Of a stretch of DNA of 64,000 nucleotides, positions 1 through 39,909 are shown in pieces. This DNA is from Corynebacterium glucuronolyticum DSM 44120 (GTDB taxonomy: Bacteria; Actinomycetota; Actinomycetes; Mycobacteriales; Mycobacteriaceae). Every line of letters begins with the position of its first letter. Positions within the stretch are counted from its first letter, which is position 1. A program made the translations under genes and the position numbers. A model generated the notes under the pieces. It was not told where the DNA came from. It ran no database searches and was given only the letters and a program-made list of their open reading frames with translations. The stretch covers positions 558,001-622,000 of the forward strand of contig NZ_CP047452.1 in the NCBI RefSeq assembly GCF_030440595.1. The letters run 5' to 3'.

Positions 1-3000
1 TTTTGCAGGCGCGTTCCAACACGTTCGATGTCACTCCGTACAACGTGACCACCAACCCCGCCACGGTGGGCGATACTGCCACGGTGCGGGCAACGGATCT
101 CATCCCGGATTACGAGTACAACGTTGTGTGGACCGATTCCGCCGGGAACAGGGTAGGCGAGTGCAAGGTTTCCTCCGATAGCCTGGGCAACATTCCGGCC
201 AATACTTGCCCGCTGACGGTTCCGGATACCATCGGCACCGCCGAGACCTACACCGCGAGCCTCTACGCCGGTCGCACGCTGGTGCAGGCCGACTCGTTCC
301 TCGCCACCCGCAACGATCAGGCCAACCCTTACGGCTCCGTGGGTGATCCCTACACCGGCCACTACAAGCAGGAAGCTGCCGATGGTCGCACGATGGAGTA
401 CGAGGCCGAGGGCCTCCCCGAGGGCCTGAGCATCGACCGGAAGACGGGCGAGATCACCGGTATCCCGACCAAGGCTGGCACCACTGTAGCCACGATCAAG
501 GCCAAGCAGATGAAGGGCGGCAAGGTCGAGCAGACCTTCCCCAAGGAGATCCCCTTCACCATTACCGATACGCCCCTGCCCAAGGGTAAGTCGCGCGTGC
601 CATACACCCACAAGCTCGCAACCGAGGGCCTTCCCGAGGGAGCTGAGATCTCCAACTACATCGTCAACGGCGCCGAAGGTCTGACCGTCAACGAGAAGGG
701 CGAGCTCACCGGTCTCCCGGCCGCCGCCGGCGAGTACAACGTGATTGTTCGTTACACCGTCAAGGACGGCGAGCGCACGTTCACCCACCTGGACCGCGTC
801 AAGTTCGTCGTCGATCCTTCCCAGGCTACCGAGACGAACGCCGAGTACCCCAAGGTTGTTGTCCAGCAGGGCACCACCAAGACTGCTAAGGCGGATAAGG
901 ACTTCCCGGCTCGCACGAAATTCAAGCTCGCCGAGGGCACCCCGGATTGGGTCTCCGTCGACGAGAACGGCATTGTCACCTACAAGCCGGGCCCGGATGA
1001 GAAGGTAGGCGAGCGGCTCTTCAACGTCACCGCTTCCTTCCCGGATGGTTCCACCCGCGATTACCGCCTGCCGGTCGAGGTCACCCCGTCCGACACGCAC
1101 ACCTACACCCCCGAGTATGAGGGTCTGGAACTGCGCCAGGGCAAGACGGGCTTCATCCCCGCCCCGGTGGACGCCGCCACCAAGCAGGCGCTGCCTGAGA
1201 AGAGCTCCTTTGAAAAGGTCTCCGGTGAAGAATGGATCACTGTTGATCCCACCACCGGTGTGATCAAAGCTGTCGTTCCCGTTCACCAGAAGGTTGGTGA
1301 TTACCCCGTCACGGTGAAGGTCACCTTCCCCGATGGCTCCACGGGTGAGGCGAAGACCACCGTTAAGGTGGTCGATTCCTACGACAAAAAGTTCGATCCC
1401 TACTACAAGGATATGGAAGCGGTCGCCGGTGGAGCGAAGGTCTACGGCGAGCTCCCAGAGAACGCCCCTGCGGATGCCACCTACGAGCTCATTGATCCAC
1501 TTGGATGGACAAGCGTTGATCCTGACAATGGTCAGGTCACCGCCCAGCCGCCGGTAGACGTCAAGCCTGGCGAATACTCCCAGAAGATTCAGGTCACCTA
1601 CTCGGATGGCACCAAGGAAACCAAGGAGGTCGCCCAGAAGATCACCGTCACCGCCAACAACGCAGACTCCGTCGAGCTTGCTTATGGCGATGAGGTTACG
1701 GTTCGCCAGGAGAAGGAAGCTAAGGTTCCTGCTCCTCAGGTGACCAAGGGTGAGCTTCCCGCCAACACGCTGTTCACCCTGGACAACCAGTATGACTGGT
1801 TGACCATCGACGGTAAGACCGGCGAGATCACCGCTAAGCCCACCAACAACACGGCCGCTGACAGCTACGAGATCCCCGTCACGGTAACCTTCCCGGATAA
1901 GTCCACCAAGGCTCTTTCGGCCAAGGTGAAGGTTGTTGCTTCCGATGTCACCACCTACGGCACGCCACAGTACAATTCCGTCAGCGTCAAGCCCGGCGGG
2001 ACCGCGAAGGTTGATCGCCCGAAGACGACAGAGGGTGAGGCGCTGCCAGAGGGCACGACCTTCGAACGCGTCGGCACCACGCCTGAGTGGGCCACCCTCA
2101 ACGAGGACGGCTCCATCACGGTTGCTCCTGGTGGTTCTGTTTCCAACGGCTCCTACGAGGTGCCGGTGACGGTTACCTACCCGGATGGCACCAAGGCCAA
2201 CGCCGTTGCCACCATCCAGGTTGGCGATACCCGCGCAGCCGAGGATGAGAAGAACGGTGTTACCGAGTACGAGCCCAAGACAGTGAAGCAGGGCGAGACT
2301 GAATCCGCCACGGCTAAGTCGTCCGACGAGGCCAGCTACGAAAGTGTTGCCGAGCTTCCCGAGTGGGTCAAGCTGGACAAGGAATCGGGCACCCTCTACT
2401 ACGCTCCCGGTTTTGAGGTAACGCCTAAGGAGTACCAGATCCCGATCCGCGTTACCTACGACGTAGACAAGTCCTTCCGCATCGTCAACGCGGTAGTGAC
2501 CGTCCAGGCCACGGACAAGGGCAGCTTCGATCCGAAGTATGCGGACACCACGGCTCGCCAGGGTGACACTCTGAATATCGATACCCCGAGGGACACCGAG
2601 GGCAAGGTACTGCCGGAGGGCACCACCTTCACCAAGGAAGGCGGCCCCAGTTGGGCTACCGTCAACCCCGATGGCACCATCACCGGCACCGTTCCGGCCG
2701 ACGCGCCTCTGAAGGATTACACCATTCAGGTGAAGGCACACTACCCGGATGGCACCACTGATGATCTCGATGCCGCGGTCAAGGTGACCAAGTCTTACAA
2801 GGACGAGTTCAACCCCGCCTACGAGCGTATCACGGTTGCCGCCGGCGACAGCAAGCTTGGCAAAGAGCCGACGGACGTTCCCGCCGGCTCGACCTTCAAG
2901 CTTGTCGACGCCCCCGCGTGGGTTACGATCGGTGAAAAGTCTGGACAGGTCTTCGTCAGCCCTGGTAAGGACGTGGCGCCGAAGGTGTACAAGCAGCGGG

Positions 3001-5090
3001 TAGAGGTCATTTACCCCAGTGGTCCCTCCGAGGTCGTCACCCAGGAGATCGAGGTCACTGGAAACTACGCTGACCGCTTCGACGGCAAGATCAACTACGA
3101 GAAGGTTGCCGAGGTTGCCCAGACAAAGTCTGAGACGATCGACCCGACCGTACAGGGTGACCTGCCCAGTGGTACCTACTACACGCTGAGGGAGGAGTCG
3201 GACTGGATCACGGTTGATCCGGTGACCGGCGCTGTCACCTTCTCGCCTGGCGCCAACCAGGAGGTCAAGACATACGACGTTCCGGTTATCGTCCACTTCC
3301 GCGATGATTCCGAGCTGGAGATCACCGCTCAGGCCAAGGTTGTTGAAAGCGACTACTCCAAGCACGGCGACCCGAAGTACGATGACATCGACACGGTCAC
3401 GCCTGGTGAAGATGTCCACGTCAACCCGCCGAAGGATAAGAACGGCAACGAGCTGCCCGACGGCAGCAAGTTCGAGAAGGACGGCACCACCCCGGATTGG
3501 GTTGTTGTTAACCCTGACGGCTCCCTCGACATCGATGGCAAGGATGCCGTTCCTGGAACCCACGAAATTACCGTCAAGGTCACCTACCCCGACGGTACGA
3601 CGGGTACCGCAAAGACCACGGTCACTGTCGATGGCAAACTCGCCGATAAGCTTGACCCGCAGTACGATTCGCTGACACTCCGCCAGGGCAAGACCGGCAC
3701 CATAGAGCGCCCGGCAGCCCTCAAGGACGTTGACGCTACTTTCGAGGTCATCAGCAGCCTGCCGCAGGGTGCATCGCTGAACGAAGACGGCTCCATTTCG
3801 GTGGATGCCACGAACGTGAAGCCGTACACCCAGGACATCCTGGTGAAGATTCACTACACCAAGGATGGTTCTGAGGACACCGCGGTTGCCAAGGTGACGG
3901 TGACGGAATCCCAGAGTAACGAGTACCAGCCGATCTACAAGGATAAGGACGTTCAACAGGGCGGCAAGGTCACTTTCGATGCTCCGAAGGATGCCAACGG
4001 CAAGACCATTCCGTCCGGCACTACTTACGCCCCGGGCGAAGGTAACCCCGACGGAGTGTATGTCAATCCGAACACCGGTGAGATCACCTACGAGCCTGGT
4101 GCCAATGAGACACCCGGCAAGAAGATGATCGACGTCGTTGTGACCTACCCCGATGGCACGAGTGAAACCATCACGGCCGAGGGCAACGTCACGGAATACA
4201 CCACCGCTGACTCCAGCAAGGTCACCTACCCGTCGCTGGTTCCTGACCGTGGCACCACGGTGAAGAGCAAGCCGTACATCGACCTGGTTGAGACCCCCGG
4301 TATCGAGATGAACGAGATTCCGGAGGGCACCACCTTCCAGGTTGATCAGTCCAAGGTTCCGGCCGGCTGGACCGTAAAGGTCGTCGACCAGACCACTGGT
4401 GAGGTTGAAGTCACTGTTCCTGAAAATGCCGTCACCGGTGTCGGCCAGGACATCCCCGTGAACGTCACCTTCAAGGATGGCTCCAAGCAGGCCTCCAAGG
4501 TCACGGTCACGCCGAAGGTTGCCTCCATCGCGAAGGAGACTACGTTCTCTATACAGCGATGCTTCGAGGACAACGATGACTGGTACACCAACCCGCTGCT
4601 CTACCTCATCCCGCTGGGTATCATCGGTCTGCTCACCCAGATCGAGCTGCCCCTCCCGGAGAGTGTCAAGCAGCAGCTGGATGCGCTGCGCCCGGCCAAC
4701 CCCGGTGAGCAGCCACAGTTCATCAAGGACCTCAACGCCCAGTTCGCTAACTCGGGCATCAAGGTCAACGCCGGCGGTATCCTCACCATCCTCGGCCTGA
4801 CCGCTGCGGCCGGCTTGGTTGGTGCTTACTACCTGTCCAAGTGCACCTCCGGCAAGGGCTGGGACTTCAGCGCCATCGAGACCGACGAGACCGGCAACAT
4901 CTTCTCCTCCGACGGCAACAAGACCCAGACGGGTGAGAAGACCACCGAGCTCGACCAGAATGGCAAGCCGAAGACCGGCGGCACCGCTAACCGCGCTGCC
5001 AGCGATGCCGAGACTGAGGCTCAGGAGGACACGGAGTACGCGGAGGAATCCGAATACACCGAGGAAACCGACACAACTGAATCCGAGTAA
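1..5090 (+). CDS. Giant Rib/YPDG-repeat surface protein, 5' end outside the window
   Basis: At least 1695 residues are visible and the gene continues upstream of base 1, so neither start nor signal peptide can be judged. From the N-terminal side I see about 100 residues of Ig-like sequence, two He_PIG/cadherin-like units (residues about 100-280, with GLPEGLSIDRKTGEITGIP), then 13 Rib/alpha-like units of about 90 residues, most ending in YPDGT or FPDGS followed by a V-x-V strand. A C-terminal region (about 1529-1612) holds two hydrophobic stretches, and the last 83 residues are acidic and Thr/Glu-rich. No LPXTG motif is present. Family knowledge: such repeat stalks are extracellular adhesin-like fibres. 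Attachment through the C-terminal hydrophobic region is inference. It converges on the FGGY kinase across a shared terminator. Confidence 0.85.
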   Translation, partial: LQARSNTFDVTPYNVTTNPATVGDTATVRATDLIPDYEYNVVWTDSAGNRVGECKVSSDSLGNIPANTCPLTVPDTIGTAETYTASLYAGRTLVQADSFLATRNDQANPYGSVGDPYTGHYKQEAADGRTMEYEAEGLPEGLSIDRKTGEITGIPTKAGTTVATIKAKQMKGGKVEQTFPKEIPFTITDTPLPKGKSRVPYTHKLATEGLPEGAEISNYIVNGAEGLTVNEKGELTGLPAAAGEYNVIVRYTVKDGERTFTHLDRVKFVVDPSQATETNAEYPKVVVQQGTTKTAKADKDFPARTKFKLAEGTPDWVSVDENGIVTYKPGPDEKVGERLFNVTASFPDGSTRDYRLPVEVTPSDTHTYTPEYEGLELRQGKTGFIPAPVDAATKQALPEKSSFEKVSGEEWITVDPTTGVIKAVVPVHQKVGDYPVTVKVTFPDGSTGEAKTTVKVVDSYDKKFDPYYKDMEAVAGGAKVYGELPENAPADATYELIDPLGWTSVDPDNGQVTAQPPVDVKPGEYSQKIQVTYSDGTKETKEVAQKITVTANNADSVELAYGDEVTVRQEKEAKVPAPQVTKGELPANTLFTLDNQYDWLTIDGKTGEITAKPTNNTAADSYEIPVTVTFPDKSTKALSAKVKVVASDVTTYGTPQYNSVSVKPGGTAKVDRPKTTEGEALPEGTTFERVGTTPEWATLNEDGSITVAPGGSVSNGSYEVPVTVTYPDGTKANAVATIQVGDTRAAEDEKNGVTEYEPKTVKQGETESATAKSSDEASYESVAELPEWVKLDKESGTLYYAPGFEVTPKEYQIPIRVTYDVDKSFRIVNAVVTVQATDKGSFDPKYADTTARQGDTLNIDTPRDTEGKVLPEGTTFTKEGGPSWATVNPDGTITGTVPADAPLKDYTIQVKAHYPDGTTDDLDAAVKVTKSYKDEFNPAYERITVAAGDSKLGKEPTDVPAGSTFKLVDAPAWVTIGEKSGQVFVSPGKDVAPKVYKQRVEVIYPSGPSEVVTQEIEVTGNYADRFDGKINYEKVAEVAQTKSETIDPTVQGDLPSGTYYTLREESDWITVDPVTGAVTFSPGANQEVKTYDVPVIVHFRDDSELEITAQAKVVESDYSKHGDPKYDDIDTVTPGEDVHVNPPKDKNGNELPDGSKFEKDGTTPDWVVVNPDGSLDIDGKDAVPGTHEITVKVTYPDGTTGTAKTTVTVDGKLADKLDPQYDSLTLRQGKTGTIERPAALKDVDATFEVISSLPQGASLNEDGSISVDATNVKPYTQDILVKIHYTKDGSEDTAVAKVTVTESQSNEYQPIYKDKDVQQGGKVTFDAPKDANGKTIPSGTTYAPGEGNPDGVYVNPNTGEITYEPGANETPGKKMIDVVVTYPDGTSETITAEGNVTEYTTADSSKVTYPSLVPDRGTTVKSKPYIDLVETPGIEMNEIPEGTTFQVDQSKVPAGWTVKVVDQTTGEVEVTVPENAVTGVGQDIPVNVTFKDGSKQASKVTVTPKVASIAKETTFSIQRCFEDNDDWYTNPLLYLIPLGIIGLLTQIELPLPESVKQQLDALRPANPGEQPQFIKDLNAQFANSGIKVNAGGILTILGLTAAAGLVGAYYLSKCTSGKGWDFSAIETDETGNIFSSDGNKTQTGEKTTELDQNGKPKTGGTANRAASDAETEAQEDTEYAEESEYTEETDTTESE
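831..4518. repeat. 13 tandem protein-level repeats (Rib/YPDG type)
   Basis: Each unit of about 250-290 bp begins with an aromatic, (F/Y)-x-P-x-Y-like segment, then a [RQ]-Q-G-type turn, an [AP]-x-[DE]-W-[VIA]-x-[VIL]-[ND] strand and a YPDG/FPDG hairpin. The copies differ clearly at both protein and DNA level, so this is an old array and not a recent slippage product. Unit starts can be placed near residues ETNAEY, HTYTPEY, KKFDPYY, SVELAY, YGTPQY, GVTEYE, SFDPKY, EFNPAY, KINYEK, GDPKYD, LDPQYD, EYQPIY and SKVTYP. Confidence 0.8.
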
Positions 5091-7332: not shown

Positions 7333-8289
7333 GTGACTGAGAAATTCCGCCAACTCCCTCCGCCCGGCCCAGCCTGGGGCGGAAGCCTCATGGGGACATC
7401 CATTGTGGCCCGCCTCCTCGTCGAGGAGCACCTGCTATTTCTCGCCGGCATCTTTGTCGCCATAGCCTGCGTCATTCTCGCGGAGCTTACTGTCGGCTTC
7501 GCCCGCTTCCGCGAGCCTAGTTTTCGACGCACAACTATGGCCGAGTGGTCGATGTACTTCATCGGCATCCTGGCCCTCGGCGCGGCGCTATCCGGGATCA
7601 CCGGCAACAATCTCTTCCGGCTTATCGGCTTTTGGATCGGTGGACCCGTAACCGTGATCACGTGGGGGATTCAGCTCACGCGTTTCCATGGCGATCCCAA
7701 GTTCACGTGGGGCTTGCCGCTTGTGGGGCCGATGATCTCCGCGTCGGTCGCCGGTTGGCTCGCTCGCGACTACGGCAGCACGTACCACGTCATGGGCACG
7801 GTGTTGTTCTGTATGTCCCTGTTTACTGCTGTTCCCACGTTTGCCCGTGTGTATTGGGCTGCATGGCACGGCAAGGTGGATTTCACGGGTGCCAAGTCTG
7901 CGACGGCGTGGGTGCCGCTTGGCGTCGTTGGCCAGTCGACCACCGCCATGCAGATTCTTTACCCCGGTCCTTTTTCCATCCTGTATGGGCGGGTTGCCCT
8001 CGTCATCGCCATCCCCCTGGCGATCTACGCTATGACAATCTTCTACCCCAATGCTGCCCGGTGGGTTGCCTACTCACCTGCGTGGTGGTCATGCACGTTC
8101 CCGCCGGGAACCGTCAGCATGGGTGGCCACCAGGTCGCGCTCGTCAGCGGTTCGCATTGGCTCGACGTGGTGGCGCTCAGCATCCCCGTGGTGCTCATCG
8201 CCCACTGGGGATTATGTGCCAGCCGGTTTATTAGCTGGGTTACAGACCGAGGGCGGCCTGAATCGCGGGTGTTAGACCCATCGCGCTGA
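7333..8289 (+). CDS. TDT/TehA-family membrane transporter
   Basis: 318 residues with about 9-10 hydrophobic segments and the N-terminal PPPGPAWGGSLMGTSI segment typical of the tellurite-resistance/dicarboxylate transporter (TDT) family. These proteins move anions such as C4-dicarboxylates, sulfite or chloride across the inner membrane, and tellurite resistance is only one reported phenotype. The substrate here is unknown. The start is GTG at 7333, with tactat 8 nt before it, so a leaderless mRNA is possible. The 3' end overlaps the convergent 173-residue gene by 50 bp. Confidence 0.7.
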   Translation: MTEKFRQLPPPGPAWGGSLMGTSIVARLLVEEHLLFLAGIFVAIACVILAELTVGFARFREPSFRRTTMAEWSMYFIGILALGAALSGITGNNLFRLIGFWIGGPVTVITWGIQLTRFHGDPKFTWGLPLVGPMISASVAGWLARDYGSTYHVMGTVLFCMSLFTAVPTFARVYWAAWHGKVDFTGAKSATAWVPLGVVGQSTTAMQILYPGPFSILYGRVALVIAIPLAIYAMTIFYPNAARWVAYSPAWWSCTFPPGTVSMGGHQVALVSGSHWLDVVALSIPVVLIAHWGLCASRFISWVTDRGRPESRVLDPSR

Positions 8290-8761
8290 CGAGTGCTGCG
8301 ATGCCGCCGAGGAGCGCACCGACGGCGGCAATCGAGAAGCCAGCGGTGACGCCGGGGTTCTCGGAGAGCTTTGAGGAACCGAGGACGTCTGCGACGACGA
8401 CCCGCAGTGCACCGTCGTTAACGTTCACCATGCCGGGTGCACCAACGAGGGCGTTGACCCCATCCTTTTCGATGCCCTTGAAGGCACCCTCGTGAATGTT
8501 GGCGTTTTCGATGCCGTTGGCCTTGATGCCGTCTTTTTCGATGCCCTTAATGGCTCCTTCTGCGACGGTTGCGTTCTCGATTCCATTGACCTTGACGGCG
8601 TCCTTTTCTACGCCGACAACCTTGTTGTTAGATACAGCATCTTTCTGTACGCCCGTGATCGGGTTGTCGTGGATATCTGCAATGGCGGCGGAGGCGGGCA
8701 GTGCCTGGAGCGCCAGACCAAGAGCGAGAACGGGGGCGAGGGTGCGGGTGATCTTCTTCAT
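8240..8761 (-). CDS. Exported repeat protein with C-terminal hydrophobic helix, 173 residues
   Basis: The N-terminus MKKITRTLAPVLALGLALQALPASA is a clear Sec signal peptide. Residues about 35-110 hold a 23-residue repeat made of alternating 10- and 13-residue subunits that each begin G-[IV]-[EQ]-[KN]-[DA]: GVEKDAVKVN, GIENATVAEGAIK, GIEKDGIKAN, GIENANIHEGAFK. The repeat ends near GIEKDGVNAL. A long hydrophobic helix (about 140-165) then ends the protein in TPAIQAALGL. I do not recognise the family; the regular spacing could suit a solenoid. It lies 15 bp downstream of the 193-residue exported protein, probably in the same operon, and overlaps the TehA-like gene tail to tail. Confidence 0.7.
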   Translation of the reverse strand: MKKITRTLAPVLALGLALQALPASAAIADIHDNPITGVQKDAVSNNKVVGVEKDAVKVNGIENATVAEGAIKGIEKDGIKANGIENANIHEGAFKGIEKDGVNALVGAPGMVNVNDGALRVVVADVLGSSKLSENPGVTAGFSIAAVGALLGGIAALVSAMGLTPAIQAALGL

Positions 8762-8776
8762 TGTGGAAACCTTTCT

Positions 8777-9358
8777 TTACTTGCCAAGTTTTTCGAGCTG
8801 CTTCTCCAGCTCCCTGGCATATTCCATGTAGTACTTTGTGTTTTCAGAGACAGTCGAGGGGTCGGGGTTGCCGGGTGTCAGGCTGATTCCAGACGACAGC
8901 AGTGAGCTTGTCGACGCATCCGGCTCCGGCTCCGGCGGCGGTGCCTGCTGCACGCGGGTGCTGGCTTGTGCTGTGCCGAGGACGGTGCCATCGTCGGCGG
9001 TCGCCGTGAACTCGAGTGTGTGCGCCTCGGTAGATGGCGTGTCCCACGTGATGCTCTTGAAGATGGCAAATCCGTGGTTGAAACGGGCGGTGTAGGCGGT
9101 CTTCGCCCCGTCAATGGTGACGGTTACGTTGCCGTGGATCCTGTCTGCTCGCTCCCCATCGGCGCCGACGTACTGCAGTGAGTACCCGGCTTTCTGCCCG
9201 GTGAGGACATCGGTATCGGAGTACAAGAGGTGGAGTCCCTGCGGCTGGACCTGGTTCGCGGTTGCGGGGGCCGGCTCGGCGAGGGCGACTGGCTGAGTGA
9301 AAGTTAAAGGCACAAGAGTGGAGACGCATACGAGGAGTAAAGCGGATCTCTGGTGCAT
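8777..9358 (-). CDS. Exported protein of unknown function, 193 residues
   Basis: I start it at the ATG giving MHQRSALLL because GGGAGAA lies 7-8 nt upstream; a longer ATG/TTG version exists. A signal peptide ends near LAEPAPA. The mature part has one predicted beta-sandwich-like region (YSDTDVLTGQKAGYSLQYV to LEFTATADDGTVLGTAQAS), a Pro/Glu linker (QQAPPPEPEPDAS) and a short charged C-terminal helix (YMEYARELEKQLEKLGK). There is no membrane anchor. It is first in a two-gene unit with the 173-residue repeat protein and is divergent from feoA. Confidence 0.65.
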   Translation of the reverse strand: MHQRSALLLVCVSTLVPLTFTQPVALAEPAPATANQVQPQGLHLLYSDTDVLTGQKAGYSLQYVGADGERADRIHGNVTVTIDGAKTAYTARFNHGFAIFKSITWDTPSTEAHTLEFTATADDGTVLGTAQASTRVQQAPPPEPEPDASTSSLLSSGISLTPGNPDPSTVSENTKYYMEYARELEKQLEKLGK

Positions 9359-9510
9359 GGGCGATTCTCCCATCAAATTTGAGTTGACCTGTAGTGTAGC
9401 AACAACTCTATCCGAGGTTCACCCCCTAGTTTGTGGACCCAAAGTACCGGCGTGTCGCTTTTGTGAAAAAACTCACAGCCCCAGGCTTAGGATATTTTAA
9501 ACTCGCCTAG

Positions 9511-39333: not shown

Positions 39334-39909
39334 TTAGGGGAGCATTGCAGCGATCTCTGCGGGGAGCAGGGGCTTGATCTGCGGGAGCAGAGCGATGATG
39401 AGAGCGAGGCCGACGAGCACGGAGCCACCGGCGATAACGCCGATGCCGACCTGGTTCGGCTGGCCCTCCATCGTGGAGAAGATGCCGGCGAGATCGTAGT
39501 CAGTCTTGGAAAGGTTCTTGCCGTCGGCGCAGGCCTGGTAGGCGGCAGCGACGGAGGAGTAGGCAACCGACTCCTTCTTGAACTTGTCCTGCTCTTCCTT
39601 CACCTTCTGCTCGGTGACCTTCTTGTCCTTGAGCTGCTGGTCAAGGCCCTTGATGATGGTCTCGCGCTTGGTGAACGCCTTGATGAGTTCTTTCTTCGCG
39701 GTCTTGGCATCATCCTTCTTGATTTCCTGCTGTGCCTTGAGTCCCAAGAGGGTGGCATCATCCTTGTTCAGAACGATGGTGCAGACGTTGTCCTTAACCT
39801 TAACGCCGACGGGGGTAGCTGTTTCCTCTGCGAATGCCGGGGTGCACATGCCAGCGGCAACGGCGATGGCGGTGACGGAAGCGATAGATGCCTTCTTGAA
39901 TCCCTTCAT
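39334..39909 (-). CDS. Exported protein with C-terminal hydrophobic module, 191 residues
   Basis: ATG 39909 follows AAGGGA. The signal peptide ends near GMCTPAFAEE. The mature part has two Cys (NVCTIVL, YQACADG) that may form a disulfide, with a Lys/Glu-rich helical, possibly coiled-coil stretch between them (KKDDAKTAKKELIKAFTKR and KKVTEQKVKEEQDKFKKE). It ends in a hydrophobic helix and IALLPQIKPLLPAEIAAML, closely like a segment of the giant repeat protein. The family is not recognised. It stands alone between bglG and the PH-domain pair. Confidence 0.7.
   Translation of the reverse strand: MKGFKKASIASVTAIAVAAGMCTPAFAEETATPVGVKVKDNVCTIVLNKDDATLLGLKAQQEIKKDDAKTAKKELIKAFTKRETIIKGLDQQLKDKKVTEQKVKEEQDKFKKESVAYSSVAAAYQACADGKNLSKTDYDLAGIFSTMEGQPNQVGIGVIAGGSVLVGLALIIALLPQIKPLLPAEIAAMLP

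Follow-up and report, generated by a model that had tools for sequence, protein, structure and literature searches.

The window analysed here is a 64,000-nucleotide stretch (positions 558001-622000) of the single 2,866,769-base contig of Corynebacterium glucuronolyticum DSM 44120 (NZ_CP047452.1). The nearest named relatives met in the searches, a C. pyruviciproducens protein at 52% identity and a C. glucuronolyticum MAG, agree with a place in that group of Corynebacterium. The window contains the C-terminal part of a giant repeat protein and, on the opposite strand, a small exported protein, both of which end in hydrophobic regions (Table 1). The frame of the giant has 2184 codons and begins about 1.4 kb upstream of the window; its signal peptide was recognised by eye. 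An earlier note on this DNA had proposed that the two tails share one C-terminal module acting as a sortase-independent retention signal. The strings on which the proposal rested are present as given, with IGLLTQIELPLPESVKQQL starting at base 4623 (+) in the frame of the giant and IALLPQIKPLLPAEIAAMLP closing the small protein, and the second hydrophobic segment and acidic tail ascribed to the giant are both seen in the sequence. Neither protein carries a sortase motif: L[PA]xTG has no occurrence over the whole frame of the giant, and none was found by eye in the small protein. The interval 4588-5090, to which the module had been assigned, misses its first cysteine.

Table 1. Features of the window (coordinates count from its first base)
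Feature	Position	Strand	Description
Giant repeat protein, part within the window	3..5090	+	repeats of the RibLong/YPDG, Rib and He_PIG types, followed by module A
Module A of the giant	4548..4856	+	Cys, hydrophobic segment 1, amphipathic stretch, hydrophobic segment 2, Cys
First Cys of module A	4560..4562	+	
Hydrophobic segment 1 of module A	4590..4640	+	NPLLYLIPLGIIGLLTQ
Hydrophobic segment 2 of module A	4779..4832	+	ILTILGLTAAAGLVGAYY
Second Cys of module A	4842..4844	+	
Tail of the giant past the second Cys	4845..5087	+	81 residues: 22 D/E, 6 K/R
173-residue exported protein	8240..8761	-	hydrophobic C-terminus; by profile outside modules A and B
Small exported protein	39334..39909	-	191 residues; N-terminal signal peptide, C-terminal module B
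Likely signal peptide of the small protein	39829..39909	-	MKGFKKASIASVTAIAVAAGMCTPAFA; cleavage site by eye
Module B of the small protein	39337..39480	-	hydrophobic helix and terminal LLPQIKPLLPAEIAAMLP

The tail of the giant belongs to a family that we call module A. Using its last 196 residues as a query, we found four more places in the same genome with 42-46% identity, and the five copies align across two hydrophobic segments flanked by cysteines. The architecture is a cysteine, a hydrophobic segment, an amphipathic stretch (QPQFIKDLNAQF in the giant), a second hydrophobic segment, a second cysteine and a tail, and the window giant shows the arrangement that defines the family: cysteine, helix, amphipathic stretch, helix and cysteine, close to where an exported repeat protein ends. 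A profile built from the five copies has matches in 27 of 231 Corynebacterium genomes, and a profile of 25 diverse members in 75 of them at E<=0.001, where the module terminates giant repeat proteins. Matches to the larger profile number up to 15 in any one genome, with E as low as 1e-43, and seven places in the C. glucuronolyticum genome reach E<=0.001. The distribution within the genus is patchy, with 156 of the 231 genomes having no match. Between 4 and 81 residues follow the module in 32 proteins, which places it near the C-terminus. The only invariant columns of the 25-row alignment, which excludes near-duplicates and locus L042, whose frame had been misread, are two cysteines and two prolines. 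The cysteine pair occurs in all 25 rows; rows were trimmed around the cysteines, and no candidate row was discarded for the absence of cysteine. One giant of 1540 codons has no cysteines other than the two of its module, which suggests that they form a disulfide. Locus L013 (5550-14195) holds a tandem pair of module A giants with frames of 1551 and 1159 codons.

The repeats that precede module A are diverse. Among the Pfam domains in the C-terminal part of the 32 proteins are RibLong (18), G5 (8), Rib (7), TSP3 (7), CarboxypepD_reg (6) and SdrD_B (6), and NCBIfam returns matches to MSCRAMM and LPXTG-anchored families. Even within the C. glucuronolyticum genome, proteins with a common module have wholly different repeats, such as RibLong, G5 and pAdhesive_10 in one case and TSP3 only in another. 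Repeats of the Rib, G5, TSP3 and SdrD_B types commonly terminate in LPXTG in other Gram-positive bacteria. The module A proteins resemble sortase-anchored adhesins in these repeats and differ from them at the end, where the module stands in the place that the LPXTG sorting signal would occupy. The last 60 residues contain LPxTG in none of the 32 proteins, and L[PA]xTG is absent from the whole frames of all five giants of the C. glucuronolyticum genome, which encodes two sortase genes. Matches on plasmids are to the repeat domains only. When the C-terminal region of one module A giant was used to search proteins, nothing was returned at E<=0.01, in contrast to the many matches of the genome searches. 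The PDB matches of a module A alignment (A3) are coiled coils and designed bundles, which we take to be compositional. A structure model computed from three rows had a mean pLDDT of 46.6 and was rejected as unusable, so that the hairpin and the disulfide considered below are without structural support. In the literature searched, which included few subscription papers, module A is apparently undescribed.

Two paralogues in the same genome match the small exported protein almost end to end, and one of these is broken by a stop; other relatives share its C-terminus. Two relatives, at L008 1501-2085 (-) and L011 1501-1647 (-), near 82.9 kb and 1266.4 kb of the genome, carry an in-frame stop ahead of the hydrophobic end. 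The mature part of the protein is predicted as a confident domain (pLDDT ~90, residues 35-140) with two conserved cysteines. It is unmatched in Pfam, NCBIfam or, by fold, the PDB; a Foldseek search with the model gave nothing at E<=0.001, the best match having E 0.33. The anchor region is modelled at low confidence (pLDDT blocks 46-57) as helices at 153-181 and 184-187.

This C-terminus defines a second family, module B, which occupies the extreme C-terminus of proteins with signal peptides and consists of a single hydrophobic helix and a short tail like LPQIKPLLPAEIAAMLP. A profile from six C-termini has matches in 44 of the 231 Corynebacterium genomes at E<=0.001. With a 29-member profile the number rises to 127 (E<=0.01), of which 92 pass 0.001 and 71 pass 1e-5, the two stricter counts including G078 and G118; matches within the genus are as strong as 1e-20; members of alignment A4 match by construction, since A4 was made from the hits of A2. 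In 28 of 28 loci the stop codon lies 0-5 residues past the match (among 33 stop distances, the value of 301 is an artefact of locus L074 being cut at a contig end). The small protein of the window shares this layout, with a signal peptide and a profile match that ends within a few residues of its stop. Equal occurrence in cytoplasmic proteins had been named as something that would refute the proposal. As an approach to this question, a crude signal-peptide rule was applied; it is passed by 31 of 33 module B frames, the failures being L066 and L070, and by 12 of 46 long control frames of the window, a proportion that makes the rule a loose one. The 33 frames are those with their 5' end within the locus, excluding near-duplicates and open frames. 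The tails end in proline in 12 of 34 proteins and in phenylalanine in nine. They contain on average 1.2 lysines and arginines in about 16 residues, and three or more in only one of the 34. The domains attached to module B (31 proteins) include DUF4185 in eight, a family described as cleaving D-arabinan (PMC10115798), and HtaA in two. A PDB search with alignment A4 found no chain below E 0.38.

The idea of a single module common to both tails did not survive these comparisons. By eye, the local alignment of the two tails has some appeal, with a 20-residue match of 45% identity and a hydrophobic helix followed in both by Q-I-x-x-P-L/P-P. Its score of 34, however, was equalled in 86 of 2000 one-side shuffles. 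Profile-profile comparison with hhalign gave a probability of 1.1% (A3 versus A4), and 5.4% over a different stretch (A1 versus A2); when only hydrophobic segment 1 of module A was set against module B, it was 1.6%. Among the matches listed, a module's members score 60-150 bits with their own profile; with the profile of the other module, scores stay at 9 bits or less. When all 842 window frames of at least 40 codons were scanned with both profiles, profile A matched no frame but the giant at E<=1, and profile B matched the protein at 39337 at 1.7e-17, together with two frames at chance level (0.17 and 0.45). Homology between module B and the first segment of module A is thus very improbable, and by sequence comparison the two tails are copies of two separate modules, each recurring across Corynebacterium.

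The protein at 8240-8761 (-) had been put forward as a weaker copy of the same module. It ends in TPAIQAALGL, as described, but it is unmatched by either profile at E<=1 among the 842 window frames, and its alignment with the giant scores 17, under the shuffle mean. We therefore reject it as a module copy. It lies in a region (8240-9376, -) with two adjoining small exported proteins, the first of which contains KGIEKDGIKANGIENAN-type repeats in its interior and has a hydrophobic C-terminus that does not belong to module B.

Both modules are nearly restricted to the genus Corynebacterium. A survey of the order covered 219 genomes of 63 genera, two of them Corynebacterium genomes. In the remaining 217 we found one match to module A (0.0066) and 27 weak matches to module B at E<=0.01, the best at 5.5e-5 and most of them to the helix only; no strong match to either module was found in the other genera surveyed. 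The weak matches to module B would be expected if any Ala/Leu-rich helix scored against the profiles, and the within-genus matches near 0.001-0.01 equal them in strength. That composition accounts for the families as a whole is nonetheless hardly credible, given matches within the genus that reach 1e-20 (module B) and 1e-43 (module A) at the C-terminus of exported proteins, against the best values of 5.5e-5 and 0.0066 outside it.

Mycomembranes extend beyond Corynebacterium, and the near-restriction of the modules to this genus therefore counts against a mycomembrane role, as does the patchiness of module A inside it. Within the genus, the mycolate gene for Pks13 has no good match in 14 of 231 genomes (5.8e-18 or weaker). 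FadD32 is weak in all 14 (best 6.1e-45), as against matches of at least 1e-159 strength in four Pks13-bearing genomes; its curated cut-off is reached by no genome, the C. glutamicum control included. We compared the presence of the modules in 12 Pks13-less genomes and 217 others, excluding G078 (77% complete) and G118 (53% complete). At E<=0.001 module A is found in 0 of 12 against 74 of 217 (p 0.010) and module B in 0 of 12 against 90 of 217 (p 0.004), p-values that overstate the contrast because the 12 genomes form about three lineages in a GroEL tree. For module B the contrast holds at 1e-5 (0 of 12 against 69 of 217, p 0.02), is not significant at 1e-8 (0 of 12 against 47 of 217, p 0.13) and is gone at E<=0.01 (5 of 12 against 120 of 217, p 0.39). 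G078, which has both modules with Pks13 absent, was discarded as a counter-example because it is incomplete and the GroEL tree places it next to G049, which bears Pks13.

Module B resembles the anchor of the PS2 (CspB) S-layer protein. As described in PMC12021427, this anchor is a hydrophobic helix and a short amphipathic helix with a final phenylalanine, and several C. glutamicum proteins have PS2-like anchors whose last residue is F, P or K; PS2 is released once its last 27 residues are lost (cited in PMC12337289). Like module B proteins, PS2 has a signal peptide, a low-complexity linker and a terminal hydrophobic helix; its short amphipathic helix may have a counterpart in module B, modelled at low confidence in the window small protein. 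PS2-type anchors also share with module B the absence of a sortase motif, and a final P or F occurs in 21 of 34 module B proteins. PS2 homologues differ from the window small protein in having an invariant final phenylalanine; its final proline falls under the F/P/K rule of the PS2-like proteins and outside the Phe rule of PS2 alone. The likeness is to the published descriptions of PS2 rather than to its sequence, and the two module B proteins closest to PS2 in layout matched no solved PS2 chain. With PS2 and PS2-like anchors in print, module B can be regarded as foreshadowed. The same anchor descriptions (PMC12021427, PMC12337289), in the parts consulted, contain no counterpart of module A, with its two segments, two cysteines and tail. 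Another protein of similar design is ZnuF of C. diphtheriae, described as a cell-wall protein independent of sortases SrtA-F (PMC12445094): by that description it is exported and cell-retained, with a C-terminal helix and no sortase motif, and differs in the positive residues past the helix, which are mostly absent in module B.

Taken together, these observations suggest that the hydrophobic C-termini hold the proteins in a membrane. Anchoring of some kind is highly probable. The notion of a sortase-independent signal stands in that each tail belongs to a genus-wide C-terminal hydrophobic family of exported proteins without a terminal LPXTG, and falls in that there is not one module. We lean towards the view that the two tails are different membrane anchors replacing LPXTG in exported corynebacterial proteins, most likely in the mycomembrane. 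A protein of this kind would be exported by Sec, after which its hydrophobic C-terminus would hold it. Module A would probably form a two-helix hydrophobic hairpin, with its ends clasped by a disulfide of the two conserved cysteines, and hold long repeat adhesins. Module B, with one helix and a short amphipathic helix at the extreme end, would act in a PS2-like manner and hold smaller proteins and enzymes. What the data show are the modules and their families, their C-terminal position, signal peptides by a crude rule, the lack of a terminal LPXTG and the near-confinement to Corynebacterium; the membrane embedding of the helices, the disulfide, the retention and the membrane concerned are features that we infer from sequence.

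The choice of membrane is less certain than anchoring itself, and the mycomembrane is only somewhat favoured. That both modules are ordinary plasma-membrane anchors, tethering exported proteins to the inner membrane by their C-terminal helix or helices, is the less likely reading, though one of some weight. The segments have ordinary transmembrane length and hydrophobicity, with the best 19-residue Kyte-Doolittle windows mostly at 2.0-3.0. The plasma membrane is also where the authors of a study of HtaA-type heme proteins presume the C-terminal helices of HtaA, ChtA and relatives to reside (PMC12494546), and ZnuE of C. diphtheriae, which has a C-terminal helix, was found in the membrane fraction (PMC12445094). 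The ends of module B, however, are nearly devoid of basic residues, unlike the usual end of a stop-transfer sequence, and both the precedent of PS2 (PMC12337289, PMC12021427) and the absence of the two modules at E<=0.001 from the 12 Pks13-less genomes point to the mycomembrane.

Sorting of proteins to the mycomembrane and their retention in it are poorly understood. If the mycomembrane reading is true, scanning sequences with a pair of short profiles would be enough to list a large share of the Corynebacterium surface proteome. It would also account for the sortase-free retention of giant adhesins on the cells of commensal corynebacteria, and the modules would serve as portable anchors when proteins are displayed on the surface of C. 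glutamicum.

The flanks of module A, taken as the 40 residues ahead of the first cysteine and everything past the second, are enriched in the triplet GSS. Across the 32 proteins there are 93 GSS in 2546 flank residues and 4 in 14794 residues of the rest of the upstream parts, counts that are not independent as many of the proteins are related. The permuted triplets SGS and SSG occur 8 and 9 times in the flanks, and shuffled flanks contain 11.7 GSS (SD 3.0, maximum 23 in 500), so the excess is not compositional. Flank GSS is present in 30 of the 32 proteins, the window giant being one of the two without it. The linkers of module B show a weaker bias (GSS 16, SGS 6, SSG 1), with GSS in 11 of 34 proteins.

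The position of GSS ahead of the helix in many members, together with the C-terminal location of the modules, would suit signals removed by a dedicated peptidase or transpeptidase of the exosortase or rhombosortase kind. We consider this improbable: module B has no basic end, and past module A come a further 4 to 81 residues that carry GSS of their own. We conjecture instead that GSS marks sites of O-mycoloylation and that its clusters make these proteins candidates for the modification, although we know of no module A or B protein that is mycoloylated. The clusters in the module A flanks suit the Ser/Gly-rich flexible sites described for envelope proteins that are O-mycoloylated in C. glutamicum (PMC11066868). 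Differences are that the sites in that account lack a strict consensus, and that GSS is absent by eye from the module of the window giant and from the small protein. A doubtful extension is that corynebacteria have a mycomembrane sorting route of their own in place of LPXTG, in which anchor A or B is combined with GSS mycoloylation by a mycoloyltransferase, and giant adhesins would be held by both the hairpin and lipids. The GSS pattern makes a protein modification so far lacking a consensus testable. Separately, a Rib-type giant of the same genome (L192, 2891-4999, -), with RibLong repeats, lacks module A and ends in a GSS-rich linker and a single helix.
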